Position numbers and translations under genes: made by a program. From positions 1-64,000 of the forward strand of contig JAPLDP010000065.1 of assembly GCA_026391695.1 (NCBI GenBank): a stretch of 64,000 nt of DNA, given 5' to 3'. Source of the stretch: Bacteroidota bacterium (lineage in GTDB: Bacteria; Bacteroidota; Bacteroidia; Bacteroidales; JAGONC01). Below, one piece after another: positions 5,776 through 14,835 of this stretch (its first letter is position 1; each line of letters starts with the position of its first letter). The notes below the pieces were generated by a model. That model saw nothing but the letters and a program-made list of their open reading frames with translations, did not search any database and was not told the DNA's origin.

Positions 5776-8403
5776 TTACAGTCTGCCTCCGACTACACAA
5801 CACTCCTTATATCTTTGAACTGTTCCCTGAAGATTGAAAACTTCAACAAGAACAACATAGATACCCACTAATACCCTTTCGCCCGTATCATTCAATCCAT
5901 CCCATGAGAGGACACCTTCAGATCCAATAAGTCTGTTGTTAGCAAGGTGCCTGACCAGCCGGCCGTTTGAATCATATATGGAAATGCTGGCAGCATAACC
6001 TGGTTCGTTCAGCTTGTAGCTGATGTTAAGAATATCGTTGAACCCGTCATTGTCGGGTGAAAATATCTCAGGATACACCTTTACCGGATTCTCTGGCTTT
6101 AGGTAAGTGCTAAACTGTGAATTTTTATAGGCAGGTGTTGCAAAGCCGGCATTTTCCGATGCGGAGTGCCAGTTTGTCCGGTCTTCTGTCGGCCGGTCAT
6201 AATTGACACGTTCAAGTGAAACACCCTCGGTGGAGTTCAACAGACTGAAATGATAATCGGATGAATAGGTGAATTTATCAATGATCCTGTTATCATTTTT
6301 TCCGGAAAGGACGACAATTCCATGATCCTCATTATATCCCGGAAAAGAAGACATTTTAATAAAACCATCGGGATTCGTTGTCAGATAGTCTGCCTTTACT
6401 TTTTCAGGATCGACGGTCAGTACCAGATAATCTTCAGGAAACATCAGAAAGCTTTGTCCGACAAGGGGCTCTGCTGATGTGATGGCAGAGGTCATGGTAT
6501 CGTATGAGGCCAGTGCCAGGTCATAGAGATCAATAATCTGGTTCGAACGGTTGTAAATCTCAATAAAATCGGCACCATCATCTTTCTGATCGGTCAGTAT
6601 CTCATTAATCACTACGTCCATATGTCCTGCTGTCCCGGGCAATCCTATCTTCCTTGACGTATTAAACGTGACGGCATTTCCCAAACAATCTGTCAGGGTA
6701 TCCTTTAAATAGAGCAGATACGGTGTGTTTTTATTCAATTCTTTGGAAAATTCAAGTCTGACAGCACGGTAATCGGGTGGTACGGGATTAAGATTTACCG
6801 GATAACCGATATCCCCATCAATAAAATAGCCTAAGGGATTCAGAAGAGTCAGGCTATCCATCTTTTCATTGAAAGTTATGATGATATTCCGGGAATCAAG
6901 GATGGAAAGCCCGTATATAGCAGGATGTGTGGTATCGGGATTGGAGGCAAGAACAGAGTTGCTTCTGCCGGGTGTCCCTCCTGATGCGTCAATGGAAGCT
7001 ATCCAGTTACCTGTTTCACAGCATGGATTTAAAGGATCAATTTGTTCCAGCGACCATCCGCCGTTCCTTTTGAAATCTTCTTTGTACCATTCCTCAGTAT
7101 ATGTTACAGAATGGATCACTTGTCCGGCAAGGTTCTTCAGTGTTATGGTCGTTCCTGAATTATTTAATGATGAGGTGGAGGAAAATAGACTGACATTTTG
7201 CCCGTAAGCACTGAGGGCATTATCTTTTGTGACCATCAGAAAACTGTCGGGCAGGAGGGACACCTCCGGGAATATGGCATGTGATGAACCATATTCAAGT
7301 TCCCATCCTGAGAGGTCGACAGGATAAGGCAGCCTGTTGTGAAGTTCAATATATTCATCTTCCGGCAGGTCAACAGCAGGTGCCGGATTGGCCATGATTT
7401 CATTGATTACTACATCGAAAGCTCCAGGTTTAATAAAGGTAAAAGTGAGGGTCACAGGAATTATGGAATTCCCCTCAATATCAGTCAGATCAGTAACGAA
7501 TAATTCATAGGTTATGCCGCTTTCGAAAGTGTCGTTAAATGTCAGCACGACCATAGCTGGTACCTGGTTGTCCCTGACAGTTGTGATGGGATTACCAATA
7601 CCACCGGATAGGAAATAATTGATATTTGTTTCGGCTGTGATTTCATCGACAGGTTCAGAAAAGAAGAGACTTAGCTGGTTTTCAGAAAGTACCTTTACAG
7701 AGGTGATTTCAGGAGGTACGGTATCAGTGATAAAAGGTCCGGCATAAACGTCATCGAAAAAAAACCGTGTGCTGTTGCTGCTGGTATAATTGCATAGAAA
7801 TCCAAAGTACGAAAAGTCACCGACGATGGTATCCATACCGGAAGCATCAATAGTATATGTCCAGGTTCCTTCGGGCTTGATATAGATTTCCCATTCATCG
7901 TTAATGAATTTTCTGATTTTATAGCTTATGGAAGATGGACCGGCGATAAGACCTCCGGTTCCTGTGCATATGGAGACGACAGAGGATCCGGTTTGCCGGA
8001 ATAATTCAATGGCATCGTCGGACCCGGCTTCTCCCAGCTGAAGGAAATAACCATTTAATGGTGCCTCCAGGTTTATCTGATCCGCAGCAAGATATACTCT
8101 CGCAAAGTTGTTGGAGGAGGGGCTGAACTGCAGCTTCACCCAGAAATCCCATTCCATGATGCTGTCAAATGTAAAAGGTACCGACAGGAAACTGGTACCA
8201 GATCCTGAGGTATTCAGCTGCAACTGTGACTCTAAATTTACAGTAAAATCCTGACTGTCACCCGACCAGAAAGGATTTTCTGTAAAATCCCCATCGAAGA
8301 AATCATCATATAACTGAGCCATTACCGGCTCATGAGCCACGAAGAGCAAAATCAGAATAAATATCAGGCAAATCCTTGAAGTCATTTTGTTGTAGTATTT
8401 CAT
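5776..8403 (-). CDS. Large secreted lamin-tail-domain protein with FlgD-like C-terminus
   Basis: 875 residues with a signal peptide (ends PVMAQ). An N-terminal ~200-residue beta-sandwich-like part is followed by repeated units: an SbsA/Ig-like module (PPEITSVKVLSENQLSLFFSEPV), an LTD module (VVINEIMANPAP, EYIELHNRL), a second Ig-like module (IYGLSILDSRNIIITFNEKM) and a second LTD (VVINEILTDQKDDGADFIEIYN). The C-terminus (YPEIFSPDNDGFNDILNISY, then LSWDGLNDTGERVLVGIYVV) is FlgD-Ig/T9SS-like. LTDs occur in bacterial surface proteins and secreted nucleases, but no catalytic domain is seen here. It is probably a T9SS-exported surface or matrix protein. It ends KECCVVGGRL, lacking the usual Lys-rich last strand. 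Confidence 0.8.
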   Translation of the reverse strand: MKYYNKMTSRICLIFILILLFVAHEPVMAQLYDDFFDGDFTENPFWSGDSQDFTVNLESQLQLNTSGSGTSFLSVPFTFDSIMEWDFWVKLQFSPSSNNFARVYLAADQINLEAPLNGYFLQLGEAGSDDAIELFRQTGSSVVSICTGTGGLIAGPSSISYKIRKFINDEWEIYIKPEGTWTYTIDASGMDTIVGDFSYFGFLCNYTSSNSTRFFFDDVYAGPFITDTVPPEITSVKVLSENQLSLFFSEPVDEITAETNINYFLSGGIGNPITTVRDNQVPAMVVLTFNDTFESGITYELFVTDLTDIEGNSIIPVTLTFTFIKPGAFDVVINEIMANPAPAVDLPEDEYIELHNRLPYPVDLSGWELEYGSSHAIFPEVSLLPDSFLMVTKDNALSAYGQNVSLFSSTSSLNNSGTTITLKNLAGQVIHSVTYTEEWYKEDFKRNGGWSLEQIDPLNPCCETGNWIASIDASGGTPGRSNSVLASNPDTTHPAIYGLSILDSRNIIITFNEKMDSLTLLNPLGYFIDGDIGYPVNLNPVPPDYRAVRLEFSKELNKNTPYLLYLKDTLTDCLGNAVTFNTSRKIGLPGTAGHMDVVINEILTDQKDDGADFIEIYNRSNQIIDLYDLALASYDTMTSAITSAEPLVGQSFLMFPEDYLVLTVDPEKVKADYLTTNPDGFIKMSSFPGYNEDHGIVVLSGKNDNRIIDKFTYSSDYHFSLLNSTEGVSLERVNYDRPTEDRTNWHSASENAGFATPAYKNSQFSTYLKPENPVKVYPEIFSPDNDGFNDILNISYKLNEPGYAASISIYDSNGRLVRHLANNRLIGSEGVLSWDGLNDTGERVLVGIYVVLVEVFNLQGTVQRYKECCVVGGRL

Positions 8404-10150: not shown

Positions 10151-10783
10151 ATGGCCAAACAAAGGTTCTATGTGGTATGGGAAGGAAGGGATACCGGTGT
10201 CTTTGAACATTGGAAAGATTGTGAGAAGCAGATCAAAGGATTCACTGGTGCAAAGTATAAATCATTTCCGACAAGGGATCTGGCTGAAGAGGCTTTTCAT
10301 CACGACTACCGGTTATATATGGGTATTGATTTCGGCAAGCCAAGGAAGAGCGCTGAAGAACTGAAAAACATTGGCTTGCCAGTTCCTGAAAGTATCAGTG
10401 TTGATGCGGCATGCAGCGGTAACCCCGGGGTGCTGGAATACAGAGGCGTCGATACAGGTACCGGAGCTGAAATTTTCAGACAGGGACCTTTTGATCAGGG
10501 TACAATCAATATAGGAGAATTCCTCGCCATCGTCCACGCATTGGCTTTTCTCAAAGAACGTGAAATAGACATACCGGTATATTCCGATTCCAGGAATGCC
10601 ATCAAGTGGGTAAAAGATAAAGAAGCCAGAACCAAACTTCTAAAAACCGATAAAAATCAGAAACTCTTATACCTGTTGGATCGGGCGGTAAAGTGGCTGC
10701 ACGCAAATGACTATCCTAATCCTGTTCTCAAGTGGGAGACATCTGTCTGGGGAGAAATACCCGCCGACTTCGGCCGCAAATAA
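10151..10783 (+). CDS. rnhA: RNase H with viroplasmin-type hybrid-binding domain
   Basis: 210 residues. Residues 1-50 (KQRFYVVWEGRDTGVFEHW, then YKSFPTRDLAEEAF) are the RNA-DNA hybrid-binding domain seen in eukaryotic RNase H1 and caulimovirus viroplasmin. The rest is an RNase H fold with the acidic residues in order: Asp in SVDAACSGNPG, Glu in IGEFLAI, Asp in VYSDSRNA and a late Asp in IPADFGRK. It should cleave the RNA strand of RNA-DNA hybrids during replication and R-loop removal. This two-domain form is standard in Bacteroidota. A terminator-like hairpin follows. Confidence 0.9.
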   Translation: MAKQRFYVVWEGRDTGVFEHWKDCEKQIKGFTGAKYKSFPTRDLAEEAFHHDYRLYMGIDFGKPRKSAEELKNIGLPVPESISVDAACSGNPGVLEYRGVDTGTGAEIFRQGPFDQGTINIGEFLAIVHALAFLKEREIDIPVYSDSRNAIKWVKDKEARTKLLKTDKNQKLLYLLDRAVKWLHANDYPNPVLKWETSVWGEIPADFGRK

Positions 10784-10814: not shown

Positions 10815-10839
10815 AAGGGTCACAAAATGACCTTTTTTT
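10815..10839 (+). terminator. Intrinsic terminator after the RNase H gene
   Basis: Stem ggtca (10818-10822) and tgacc (10828-10832) around the loop caaaa, followed by seven T. Upstream A/G bases can extend the stem into the T-tract. It lies about 30 bases after the stop codon. Confidence 0.7.
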
Positions 10840-10928: not shown

Positions 10929-13900
10929 ATGAAGAGAACAGGATTACTGATCATGAAAACGATGCTGATCATGATGTTAATGAACAACTATGTATTTTGT
11001 CAGACCCTTCTTGTACCGGGTGATATAGCCATCACTGGGGTGAACATGGATAACCCGGATGAATTTTCAGTGGTATTCCTCGTCGATGTGCAATCAGGAA
11101 CAGAAATACGTTTCACTGATAATGGCTGGAAAGCCGATAGTACGTTTCGTACCGGCGAAGGTATTGACATATGGATAGCCAATCAGGATTATGATGCCGG
11201 CGACGAAATCATCATTACACCGGAATCAATGGTGTTATCCAGCGAGGGAGATCAGATACTGGCTTATCAGGGGGATGGAACAGATCCTCAGTTTATCACC
11301 GCCCTGAATAACGAAGGCGATCATGTGTGGCAGTCCGATGCTACAAATTCCAATACATCCGCTTTGCCATTGGGTCTCATAGATGGTTATACATGTGTTG
11401 CTCTGCAGGAAACGGATAATATCATCTACAATAGAATTGATACCACCGGTACCAGAGAAGAACTGCTTGCTGTGATCAATGCCTTTACCAATTGGGCAGG
11501 TTCAAATACTGTGCGACAAACCCTCTCAACAATCGGGTATGTGGTGACTGTTTTTGGCGGACAATTTCCCGACAGGCTAAAAATTATTTCTATAAATAAT
11601 GGATATCATCCGGTCGTGGATCTTGGCTTTGATGTGGTCATCCAGGCTGAAGATTCCTTAAGCACACCATTACCTGTGCAACAAAATACAATAATTTCAT
11701 TGACCAAGGTTGCCGGCAGTGGCACTCTTGATGGTCCCCTTTCAGATACTATGTATGCAGGTTCTTCATCAGTCACCCTAGCTGGTGTTTTGTACGATGT
11801 GGCTGAGAGTAATGTAACGATTATGGCAGCTGTGGTCACCGGTGATGGGTTGGACTCAGATACAAGTGAATGGTTTAAGGTGATCACGCTGCCAGACATC
11901 GTTATGAATGAAATACATTATAATGGACCGGAAACAGGGGAAGATACAACTGAATTTCTGGAAATGTACAATGCCGGAATTGATACTGTTGAACTTCAGG
12001 ATTACAGCTTTACACAGGGCATATCATTCATTTTTCCTCCGCAGAGTTCTGTCTGTCCCGGTGAATTTATCATTCTGGCAAAACAGGAGAATATATATTC
12101 TGGTCAGGGTTATCAGGTTTTTGAATGGAGTGGGGGAACTTTGGAAAATGGAGGGGAAACTTTGGAGTTTACCGATCCCATGGGGCATCTGATTGACCAG
12201 GTCACCTATGGAAACAATGACGAATGGGGTAATGGTGCACCTGATGGTTACGGACCCTCGCTTGAGCTGAATGATCCTGAAATGGATAACAGCTTATCGG
12301 TAAACTGGAGGGCAAGCTATAATAATGGCGGGACGCCGGGCGGACCGAACAGCGAACCCCCTCTATCTGCTCAGTGGTATGGAGGCACACCCGGTCAGGA
12401 ACATAACTGGGCTGTGCCTTCCAACTGGCAGTTGCAGGTCGCTGCCGGACCAACCTCCGACGTGACCATCCTGTCACCCACTGATGAAATACTTATTGTC
12501 GATAATAATTTCAGTTGCAATGATCTCATCATGAATCCGGGTGCACATCTGACTGTTGCATCGGGATTCACTTTGACCGTCAACGGCGATCTGCTTCTGG
12601 AATCCGATTCTACCGGCTGTGCCTCTTTGATGCTGCAGGATAATTCTGCCGTGGTTGAGGTACTCGGAGCTACTTATATGCAGCAATATCTTACCGGCGG
12701 TGTCGTAAAAGATCCTGACAATGCAGTTTACCATTATTTATCCTCACCGGTAATTGCCGCTGTTGCCGGGGATGTCTTTCCCGGATCGGCCTATGTGCGC
12801 CGGTATAATGAACCTGCACAGGTGTGGGAAAACCTCACATCTACTGATATTCTTGAAGTCATGAAAGGATATTCGGTATGGCTGGAGGGGGGCAGTTCAA
12901 CAGTCAGTTTTGAAGGCACCTTAAATACAGGTGATCAGATGTTTGATAATATGATTTTCACTGACCCCGGCATTCCAAATTATAACCCGGATTATGCCGG
13001 GTACAACTTGGTCGGAAATCCCTTTCCTTCTGGTATCAACTGGGAACATCCTGATGTCGTTAAGACGAATATTGATGATGCCATATATTTCTGGAATCCT
13101 GAGCTGGGAGGGTATTCATCATATATAGATGGTATTGGTAACAATCCGGAAACGACAGATTCCATCATCCCGCCATTGCAGGGATTTTTTGTGAGAGTAA
13201 GTCAGATTGGTAATTCAGGTAGCCTGGCCATGAATAATAGCGTCCGTCTCCATGATGCCGGTGCTTTCTATAAAAGTGTTCAGCCGGATGTTCTGCGAGT
13301 GTCGGTTACCGACGGATCAGTGCAGGACCAGACTACGATCAGGTATAAATCTTCATCCACACCCGGGTTTGATTGTTTCTATGATGCATTCAAGCTCTTT
13401 GGATCTGCCGGAACTCCACAAATATACTCCTTGAGCAATGAAAATAAAATGTCAATCAACACATTGCCTTCAATAGACGAAAATGGGGCAGTACCTATCG
13501 GCTTTTATGCCGATCAGTCTGAAACCTATTGCATTTCTGTGAGTGGCACGGATAGTTTTATTCCTGAGATTTCAATATCCCTGGAAGATCTGAAAGAGAA
13601 TATAATCATTGATTGCCGCTTACAGCCTGCGTATGAGTTTGATTATGAATTAGGTGAAAATGAAAACAGGTTTATAATACATTTTACTTCAGCGTCCAGT
13701 ACTGTTGAAAATCCAGAGGATGGCGTAACTATGCACAACTTTGGCAAAGTCTTGTACCTGTGCCCTTCAGTAGATCAGAAAGTGAAGGAGGTGTACGTTT
13801 ATAATTTAGCCGGGAGTCTCATAATGCATTTGTGCCCTGAGGTCTCAGGGATTATACCTGTAAGAATGGTCGGCACACAAACTGTTTATATTGTCAGGGT

Positions 13901-13946
13901 TGTTACAGAGCAAAGTATCTATACAAAAAAGATCATGATTAATTAA
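10929..13946 (+). CDS. Large secreted lamin-tail-domain protein with T9SS-type C-terminus
   Basis: 1005 residues. A signal peptide (MKTMLIMMLMNNYVFCQ) starts at residue 9, so the ATG at 10953 is an alternative start. Residues ~30-210 resemble the secreted domain that opens LVPGDIAITGVNMDNPDEFS; ~325-480 is an LTD (IVMNEIHYNGPETGEDTTEF). A beta-rich part follows with DLIMNPGAHLTVASGFTLTV and a YNLVGNPFPSGINW segment typical of T9SS cargo. The last 75 residues look like a sorting domain (KEVYVYNLAGSLIMHLCPEV, ending TKKIMIN). No catalytic motif is visible. Only 11 bases separate it from the next gene, implying one operon with the exosortase. The protein itself lacks the exosortase-type tail. 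Confidence 0.8.
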   Translation: MKRTGLLIMKTMLIMMLMNNYVFCQTLLVPGDIAITGVNMDNPDEFSVVFLVDVQSGTEIRFTDNGWKADSTFRTGEGIDIWIANQDYDAGDEIIITPESMVLSSEGDQILAYQGDGTDPQFITALNNEGDHVWQSDATNSNTSALPLGLIDGYTCVALQETDNIIYNRIDTTGTREELLAVINAFTNWAGSNTVRQTLSTIGYVVTVFGGQFPDRLKIISINNGYHPVVDLGFDVVIQAEDSLSTPLPVQQNTIISLTKVAGSGTLDGPLSDTMYAGSSSVTLAGVLYDVAESNVTIMAAVVTGDGLDSDTSEWFKVITLPDIVMNEIHYNGPETGEDTTEFLEMYNAGIDTVELQDYSFTQGISFIFPPQSSVCPGEFIILAKQENIYSGQGYQVFEWSGGTLENGGETLEFTDPMGHLIDQVTYGNNDEWGNGAPDGYGPSLELNDPEMDNSLSVNWRASYNNGGTPGGPNSEPPLSAQWYGGTPGQEHNWAVPSNWQLQVAAGPTSDVTILSPTDEILIVDNNFSCNDLIMNPGAHLTVASGFTLTVNGDLLLESDSTGCASLMLQDNSAVVEVLGATYMQQYLTGGVVKDPDNAVYHYLSSPVIAAVAGDVFPGSAYVRRYNEPAQVWENLTSTDILEVMKGYSVWLEGGSSTVSFEGTLNTGDQMFDNMIFTDPGIPNYNPDYAGYNLVGNPFPSGINWEHPDVVKTNIDDAIYFWNPELGGYSSYIDGIGNNPETTDSIIPPLQGFFVRVSQIGNSGSLAMNNSVRLHDAGAFYKSVQPDVLRVSVTDGSVQDQTTIRYKSSSTPGFDCFYDAFKLFGSAGTPQIYSLSNENKMSINTLPSIDENGAVPIGFYADQSETYCISVSGTDSFIPEISISLEDLKENIIIDCRLQPAYEFDYELGENENRFIIHFTSASSTVENPEDGVTMHNFGKVLYLCPSVDQKVKEVYVYNLAGSLIMHLCPEVSGIIPVRMVGTQTVYIVRVVTEQSIYTKKIMIN

Positions 13947-13957
13947 TTGGGATATTT

Positions 13958-14227
13958 ATGAAACGGAAAATTTCAGGAATCATCAGCGCTATCAGGGTGA
14001 TGGCATTGTTGATAGCTTATCTTGGTGCTCTGCAAATAGCTTTTGCACAGCCACAACCAAGTGAGAACGGAGATGGCTCAGATACCGATGGAGAACCTTT
14101 GCGTGGTGCAGCACCCATAGGCAGTGGCATCACCGTACTTTTACTTATGGGCGCCGGGTATGCGGCAAGGAAGATTTATAATGCCGGTAAAAAGCCTGAA
14201 AATACTGAAAAAAGTATTGAAGGCTGA
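13958..14227 (+). CDS. Small exosortase-target-like protein (PID-CTERM-like)
   Basis: 89 residues in three parts: a signal peptide (1-30, ending IAFAQ), a short acidic linker (ENGDGSDTDGEP), and a tripartite tail made of PIGSG (53-57), a hydrophobic helix (ITVLLLMGAGYAA) and a basic cluster (RKIYNAGKK). Motif, transmembrane helix and basic residues are the layout of exosortase recognition tails. The PIGSG word resembles the PIDGG motif of PID-CTERM tails in Bacteroidota. There is no room for a folded domain, so it may be the sorted substrate, a membrane anchor or an accessory subunit. It lies 26 bases before the exosortase-family ATG. The PID-CTERM match is from memory and needs a profile search. 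Confidence 0.7.
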   Translation: MKRKISGIISAIRVMALLIAYLGALQIAFAQPQPSENGDGSDTDGEPLRGAAPIGSGITVLLLMGAGYAARKIYNAGKKPENTEKSIEG

Positions 14228-14253
14228 TAAGAGAAGGAACCAAGGTAGTGATA

Positions 14254-14835
14254 ATGTATCCTTTCATAGATAAACTTTCACCGCTCAGGAATGTTTTACG
14301 CTTTATCGTTATCACTTCAGTCATTCATGTTCTTTGGCGACTTTGGGAATATCAGCTGGATTATTTCCCTGTAGCAGTAGCTGTGCAAAATGTCTCCAGG
14401 TTGCTTGTCAGGATTATAACATCACAGAGCGGTCGGATAGTGAAAAACATTTTTGATAACGAGGCATTCTTTACAGGGCAGATCATATACCTTGGCAGTT
14501 ACGGACACTTGGAGATCTTTGAGGGGTGTTCAGGCCTGAAGCAGTTTGCTCAATTTGGGATACTGATTTTGTTATGCCCTGGTAAATGGTATAATAAAAT
14601 CTGGTTTATACCATCAGGCATAATAATAATTCATATTACCAATATTGTCAGGATGGTAGGACTCTCACTGGTTATTATGAATTACCCTGAATATTGGGAA
14701 TTCACTCATAATATTCTGTTCAAATGGCTCTTTTATGCCGTGATCTTTGGTTTGTGGGTATTTTGGACAGACTATTTACCTGTTACTCGAGTTCAAAATA
14801 GGTCTGTCCTATTTCATTGTTATCCGAAAACATAG
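14254..14835 (+). CDS. Exosortase/archaeosortase-family transpeptidase
   Basis: 193 residues, mostly hydrophobic with five or so membrane helices. The family catalytic set is present in order: Cys92 in IFEGCSGLKQF, Arg133 in HITNIVRMVGL and His152 in WEFTHNILFKW. These enzymes cut membrane-anchored proteins at a C-terminal motif and are thought to transfer them to a surface carrier. The size is that of the short Bacteroidota forms, without the long extra domains of EpsI-type exosortases. I chose ATG over the GTG six bases upstream because AAGG sits at a usable distance. The last 16 residues overlap the convergent gene, so the tail may be dispensable. Confidence 0.85.
   Translation: MYPFIDKLSPLRNVLRFIVITSVIHVLWRLWEYQLDYFPVAVAVQNVSRLLVRIITSQSGRIVKNIFDNEAFFTGQIIYLGSYGHLEIFEGCSGLKQFAQFGILILLCPGKWYNKIWFIPSGIIIIHITNIVRMVGLSLVIMNYPEYWEFTHNILFKWLFYAVIFGLWVFWTDYLPVTRVQNRSVLFHCYPKT

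Follow-up and report, generated by a model that had tools for sequence, protein, structure and literature searches.

The exosortase XrtF of Flavobacterium johnsoniae is needed for biofilm formation and colonisation (PMC10936215, PMC12188702), with deletion of xrtF or of its neighbour Fjoh_1449 abolishing zorbs and strongly reducing biofilm, an outcome also reported for deletions of the type IX secretion system (T9SS; PMC10936215), and the targets of XrtF are called unknown in one of these reports (PMC12188702). For rhombosortase, Haft and Varghese described that the enzyme gene adjoins that of its target in single-target genomes and lies apart from its targets in multi-target genomes, the targets carrying a tripartite tail (PMC3237569). 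Within the T9SS, the PorU sortase removes the C-terminal tail of the cargo and anchors the cargo to anionic lipopolysaccharide (A-LPS), and type B cargo genes are commonly followed directly by a gene for a PorP/SprF-like shuttle that is specific to the class of C-terminal tail (PMC12618676). Among the matches listed by a literature search covering journals outside subscription, we found no relevant paper on PID-CTERM, XrtX or exosortase X, and none on a pairing of exosortase/CTERM systems with the T9SS or on a small partner of type IX cargo. Here we analyse a locus in which such components stand side by side: three plus-strand genes within 3.9 kb, encoding a large lamin tail domain (LTD) protein, a small protein of 89 amino acids (aa) and an exosortase, in a Bacteroidota bacterium of the order Bacteroidales (assembly GCA_026391695.1, contig JAPLDP010000065.1, positions 1 to 64,000; this whole stretch of 64,000 nucleotides is referred to as the window). 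The observation of a compact three-gene exosortase locus stands, and comparison with relatives makes a functional link between the small protein/exosortase pair and the T9SS cargo likely. On balance we favour the reading that a tiny protein processed by the exosortase acts jointly with a large cargo of type IX secretion, and that the window holds the one-target form of a module joining the two systems.

The frames and the spacing are as initially annotated, with gaps of 11 and 26 bases between the genes. The first gene (10929..13946) encodes a protein of 1005 aa that comprises a signal peptide, an LTD (residues 322-428, 11892..12212; Pfam PF00932, 51 bits, over the cut-off of 34.3), a C-terminal module of 230 residues (13254..13943, delimited by alignment A7) that is common to cargos preceding small PID-CTERM-like genes, and a T9SS type A-like sorting tail (residues 950-1005, 13776..13943). 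The tail had been proposed earlier and is matched by TIGR04183 (Por_Secre_tail) with 21.2 bits, just under the cut-off of 23. The gene of the small protein follows at 13958..14227 and that of the exosortase, of 193 aa, at 14254..14835 when read from the ATG at 14254 to the stop at 14835; starting instead at a GTG at 14248 would lengthen the protein to 195 aa and shorten the gap to 20 bases. A terminator-like inverted repeat with a T run lies between an upstream RNase H gene and the three genes (10815..10835, plus strand; pattern scan only, which yielded 9 sites of this kind for the region, where shuffled sequence gave 3.3 on average), and the same scan listed none in the two gaps of the locus. 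As the repeat precedes the first gene and none is listed in either gap, it is likely that the three genes share a single transcript; a scan of the region for sigma-70 promoters returned chance numbers only.

Profile searches place the third protein inside the exosortase superfamily: it passes PF09721 (Exosortase_EpsH) with 40.8 bits (cut-off 25.7) and TIGR04178 with 60.3 bits (cut-off 23). Its best NCBIfam match is XrtX (NF046081) with 90.1 bits, under the cut-off of 170, a value that ten of its relatives also do not reach (59-136 bits). The order Cys, Arg, His is usual for the exosortase/archaeosortase superfamily, and the full set of these residues is present, as had been claimed, in the form of the predicted catalytic Cys92 (codon 14527..14529), Arg133 (14650..14652) and His152 (14707..14709); across the 26 rows of an exosortase alignment (A1) Cys and His do not vary at their positions, and Arg is conserved to at least 90%. 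On this basis the enzyme is a member of the exosortase superfamily, with cleavage of a sorting tail as its predicted activity. XrtF is likewise a Bacteroidota exosortase, but the window enzyme scores only 53.5 bits against the XrtF model, for which the cut-off is 90. Single-sequence structure prediction was poor both for the exosortase (mean predicted local distance difference test score, pLDDT, 48.1) and for the C-terminal module of the cargo (47.6) and was not interpreted.

The small protein consists of a signal peptide (residues 1-30, 13958..14047, placed by eye with a cut before Gln31 according to the Bacteroidetes Q-rule, by which signal peptidase cleaves before Gln; PMC5837995), an ectodomain of 27 residues that ends in PIGSG and contains no Lys (14048..14128), and a transmembrane stretch with a basic C-terminal tail (14129..14224), the helix and the signal peptide being assigned by eye and from hydrophobicity. 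Its sole NCBIfam match is PID_CTERM (NF046080), in agreement with the proposed PID-CTERM-like sorting tail: profile positions 2-23 of 25 align to residues 53-74 with 22.8 bits (E 6e-5), below the cut-off of 26, and together with its homologues this makes the protein a probable exosortase substrate. Exosortase X and PID-CTERM are thus the nearest described pair, as the best match of the enzyme and the only match of the small protein, yet the window pair remains below both curated cut-offs and differs in its motifs: PIGSG replaces the P[IL][DE]GG found in 13/13 exosortase-adjacent small proteins without a T9SS neighbour, and the active-site context is CSGLKQ instead of the C[LMI]GRN of seven of the eight A1 enzymes that stand next to such a small protein.

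In the initial annotation, the small protein was considered too small for any function beyond being anchored, processed or acting as an adaptor. This does not agree with its pattern of conservation: among three species of one sister genus, 24-26 of the 27 ectodomain residues are identical, compared with 6-17 of 28 in the signal peptide, and the nonsynonymous divergence (dN) of the ectodomain is 0.04-0.06, with synonymous divergence (dS) at 0.98, 1.67 and saturation, whilst dN reaches 0.23-0.97 in the signal peptide and 0.13-0.22 in the tail. By these measures the ectodomain is the most conserved part of the small protein and is under selection; the protein is therefore not an empty anchor, and a role as a spacer before an anchor is hard to square with selection acting on the ectodomain. 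Ectodomains cut out by regular expression have a median length of 27 aa and are 56% Gly+Pro, with Lys absent from 107/118 and Gln the first residue in 86/118. A candidate role of the small peptide as amine donor for PorU transpeptidation was judged unlikely, given that the ectodomains are nearly free of Lys and usually begin with Gln.

A search with the exosortase protein covered 99 genomes of the order, for most families a single one; 42 gave a match at E<=0.001 (the weakest being doubtful), and neighbourhoods were read in 40 stretches. The order of large gene, tiny gene and exosortase is kept in all four other genomes of the same family that were searched (loci L034, L035, L036 and L039) and in a more distant genome, G056 (L037): in each, a large protein of 896-1183 aa is followed by a protein of 67-81 aa that contains P[LV]GSG, and then by the exosortase, the large proteins being 48-65% identical to the window LTD protein within the family and 27% identical in L037. 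TIGR04183 matches 5 of a set of 12 upstream tails, six of the 12 being from these conserved-order loci. Other exosortases adjoin small proteins of 64-71 aa that carry P[IL][DE]GG, with no large T9SS gene alongside; beside still others, the neighbourhood filter caught no small protein. A further locus (L067:8610-9551) contains a 100-aa protein with PIANG before its transmembrane stretch, flanked by an exosortase on one side and, on the other, by a protein of 2137 aa whose T9SS-like tail was recognised by eye; this is possibly another independent three-gene case. A contig scan with the single exosortase protein returned one locus only, L174 of a Bacteroidales metagenome-assembled genome with 37% identity, a match that only hints at the order. 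That three unrelated genes have come to lie close together by accident has in its favour that T9SS cargo genes are common, three genomes having at least 150 tail matches each; the recurrence of the order in four genomes of the family and in G056 shows, however, that the cassette is more than chance, and together with the enrichment of T9SS tails described below it renders accidental neighbourhood hardly credible.

The link between the two sorting routes had been proposed from spacing alone and is strengthened by small-protein homologues elsewhere, which follow T9SS cargo genes in many families. Scattered small genes were read in three genomes and many of them stand behind a large gene with a T9SS tail, and the pattern was quantified in a neighbourhood set of the best 119 of the 150 small-protein matches listed. 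Only 18/119 of these small genes adjoin an exosortase. The 101 that do not have an upstream gene on the same strand in 85 cases (81 within 300 bp) and on the opposite strand in 9, and lie at the edge of the piece in 7. TIGR04183 (E<=1e-3) is found in 64/85 of the same-strand upstream tails, as against 3/52 of the second-upstream tails used as a control, and it is absent from the list of the 25 most frequent families in 70 downstream genes, a list that ends at families with 4 members. Shikimate kinase was observed for 7/70 downstream genes, probably the genes of about 170 aa in L128, L140, L142, L144, L152 and L158. A search of 296 genomes across the phylum found 48 with a small-protein match at E<=1e-6, the own genome included; 29 other loci were kept, the majority belonging to a single family outside the class. 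Upstream of the small gene, the neighbour is on the same strand in 24 of them and on the opposite strand in 3, with no gene in the piece in 2, and TIGR04183 matches 19/24 of the same-strand tails. An exosortase stands beside the small gene in 5/29, and the order cargo, small gene, exosortase recurs in L216 and L226. The exosortase of the latter (L226:775-1371) scores 115 bits with XrtY against 59 bits with XrtX and is hence nearer to XrtY, so that the pairing may span exosortase types. With these comparisons the link, first guessed from one locus, gains strength as a pattern that recurs within the order and in some other lineages of the phylum.

Most of the upstream cargos share about 230 C-terminal residues, with a pattern LED..TG...Y.F...GD...RF.LHF followed by the sorting tail. 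Alignment A7 of this module contains 58 upstream proteins, with the window LTD protein as one row; Pfam recognises mainly the sorting tail (41/58 rows), and DUF6383 matches four rows. The passenger domains vary: the eight cargos scanned gave two laminin G and two LTD matches (the LTD matches below cut-off), one cohesin match (below cut-off), one DUF7901 and two without a match. At 1e-5 the module is found upstream of 79/119 small genes, in 26 families, a count that is not independent because A7 was made from 58 of these same proteins; the TIGR04183 count of 64/85, unlike the module count, is independent of A7.

These data also bear on co-regulation, the explanation that the small gene is merely co-transcribed with cargos because both are needed at the surface, the peptide joining some other matrix such as exopolysaccharide without ever touching the cargo. 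The tightness of the pairing (median gap between cargo and small gene of 42 bases), its preference for cargos with the common C-terminal module and its recurrence across 26 families of the order as well as elsewhere in the phylum all argue against this, as does a correlation of the within-genome distances between small proteins with those between modules in two of four genomes (G212, p 0.006; G113, p 0.028), with no clear correlation in G117 and G071 (p about 0.18), although cassette duplication would give the same result. Exosortases of other bacteria are, on the other hand, tied to exopolysaccharide (PMC7468200, PMC10936215). Also in favour of co-regulation, small paralogues of one genome resemble each other, by mean distance, more closely than do the modules of the corresponding cargos, whose passenger domains differ, and 13/18 exosortase-adjacent small genes have no module-type cargo upstream. 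Overall, we regard co-regulation alone as rather unlikely, and continue to prefer a small protein that works with the cargo.

At the level of whole genomes, profiles built from 18 small proteins (A2) and from the 26 exosortases of A1 were searched against 295 genomes of the order, with thresholds of E<=0.01 and E<=0.001, respectively, and with copy numbers per genome being lower bounds, since no more than 19 candidates were scored in each. A small protein is present in 107/295 and an exosortase in 120/295 genomes: 97 have both, 10 the small protein only, 23 the exosortase only and 165 neither, although this co-occurrence is partly biased, as A2 derives mostly from exosortase-adjacent small proteins. 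Homologues occurring mostly without an exosortase, the finding that would have spoken against the initial annotation, were therefore not observed at this level: 97/107 genomes with a small protein have the enzyme, compared with 23/188 without. With the small gene counted when among the 150 matches listed and the exosortase when among the 77 strongest, the two genes are neighbours in 13/22 genomes with a single small gene and in 5/37 multi-copy genomes (Fisher p 4e-4). This resembles the adjacency pattern of the rhombosortase/GlyGly-CTERM system. Rhombosortase differs in being a rhomboid serine protease with larger target proteins, and no tiny partner behind T9SS cargo is known in that system.

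Within the own genome, PF09721 yields one match, PID-CTERM one credible match (the other has E 1.03) and the module profile, at E<=1e-15, one cargo, the LTD protein, which is itself an A7 row, while T9SS tail matches number at least 150. Since each single match falls in this locus, the enzyme, its likely target and the sole cargo of the class sit together. The suggestion of a dedicated one-substrate exosortase consequently holds for the window, but does not carry over to other genomes, in which one exosortase can occur beside many small proteins (15 small-protein matches in G071) and in which most small genes, as given above, do not adjoin the enzyme.

Several observations weigh against a small protein that works with the cargo, in addition to the dependence of the module count and the bias of the co-occurrence. 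Module cargos frequently lack the small gene: in G071, 8 of 20 are followed by it (the small frame being broken in two of the 8), for 9 none was found and 3 were unchecked, and the fractions are 3/9 in G161 and 3/6 in G103. Four genomes lacking the system have 19 module cargos, and none of the 17 checked has a small gene, two heuristic matches in such genomes (L190, L201) having been dismissed by eye. Among the 13 exosortase-adjacent small genes without a module-type upstream gene, that gene lies on the other strand in 7. The counts are not independent events and the Fisher values overstate, because some genomes carry many copies and the phylum loci come mostly from one family. For the ten genomes with the small protein only, TIGR04178 is over cut-off in G074 alone, with a weak match in a broken frame in G224 and none in the other eight. 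Finally, a second match to the exosortase in the own genome (protein search, E 6e-4) contains internal stops and is probably noise. The idea that only cargos with a small partner carry the module was rejected, as partnerless module cargos occur in G071, G161, G103, G077 and G001 and module cargos also occur in the system-free G006, G016, G030 and G031; since the module is found without the small gene, this cargo class is often, but not invariably, partnered by the small protein. Behind three module-type cargos of genomes with no exosortase or PID-CTERM protein (G031, G016), open reading frames of 52-63 aa were noticed (L191:855-1028, L198:738-929, L199:1719-1877) that have no signal peptide and share P....IK[LI]DN..S...[ML]S, with [ND]PFK at or near the end; these may represent another kind of small partner for this cargo class.

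As to mechanism, a subclass of T9SS cargo could be anchored or finished at the surface with a peptide that the exosortase cuts from the tiny partner and joins to a lipid or sugar, thus forming a sorting signal supplied in trans by two genes; we advance this tentatively, as a possible but still doubtful scheme. Under the favoured reading of a small protein that works with the cargo, Sec would export the small protein and signal peptidase would leave an N-terminal Gln, likely as pyroglutamate. The exosortase, using Cys92, Arg133 and His152, would then cut at or just after PIGSG, releasing the ectodomain from its membrane helix, and would hand the new C-terminus of the ectodomain to a lipid or sugar acceptor. 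The LTD protein would cross the outer membrane by the T9SS via its C-terminal tail, and there, at the surface, the peptide conjugate would act as an anchor or adaptor for this class of cargo. The T9SS components searched for in the own genome were PorU and tails: two tandem PorU-like sortase genes (G000:C21:104529-107822 and 107985-111290) score 1400 and 1303 bits, both over cut-off. The scheme of anchoring to A-LPS by PorU, a sortase that the own genome has, involves no trans-acting peptide as described (PMC12618676).

A partner gene behind the cargo gene has precedent, because type B cargos carry a downstream shuttle gene (PMC12618676). In that case the partner is a translocon shuttle, whereas here it is a tiny, predicted Sec-exported substrate of exosortase type behind a type A-like cargo. 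The same precedent for a trans-acting partner, along with the constraint on the ectodomain, would suit a membrane adaptor, in which the small protein acts as an inner-membrane-tethered, chaperone- or shuttle-like guide for the cargo and the exosortase serves only to release or recycle it by cutting the tail. The ectodomain is, however, very short, rich in Gly and Pro and mostly free of Lys, unlike a chaperone. T9SS shuttles, moreover, are outer-membrane proteins. We therefore consider a membrane adaptor improbable.

In the surroundings of the locus, the RNase H (NF046109-like) gene lies at 10151-10783. By C-terminal sequence and by eye, an RNase H gene was also noticed close to genes for exosortases or small proteins in L040, L047 and L083, and it accounts for 3/52 second-upstream genes in the order-wide neighbourhood set. 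Some 2.5 kb upstream, on the minus strand (5776-8403), a protein with two LTD and two Big_5 stretches has a match to CHU_C, a type IX signal.

The targets of Bacteroidota exosortases are largely open, and the pairing described here offers a testable answer, namely peptides from tiny genes behind T9SS cargo genes. As the simplest case, in which a single enzyme, a single peptide and a single cargo are encoded within 3.9 kb, the window locus is a good unit in which to dissect the system. Our findings suggest that two sorting machineries that have been studied apart meet at the cell surface; and if the sorting signal in trans proves true, the exosortase and type IX routes would form a single pathway of surface assembly across much of the Bacteroidota.

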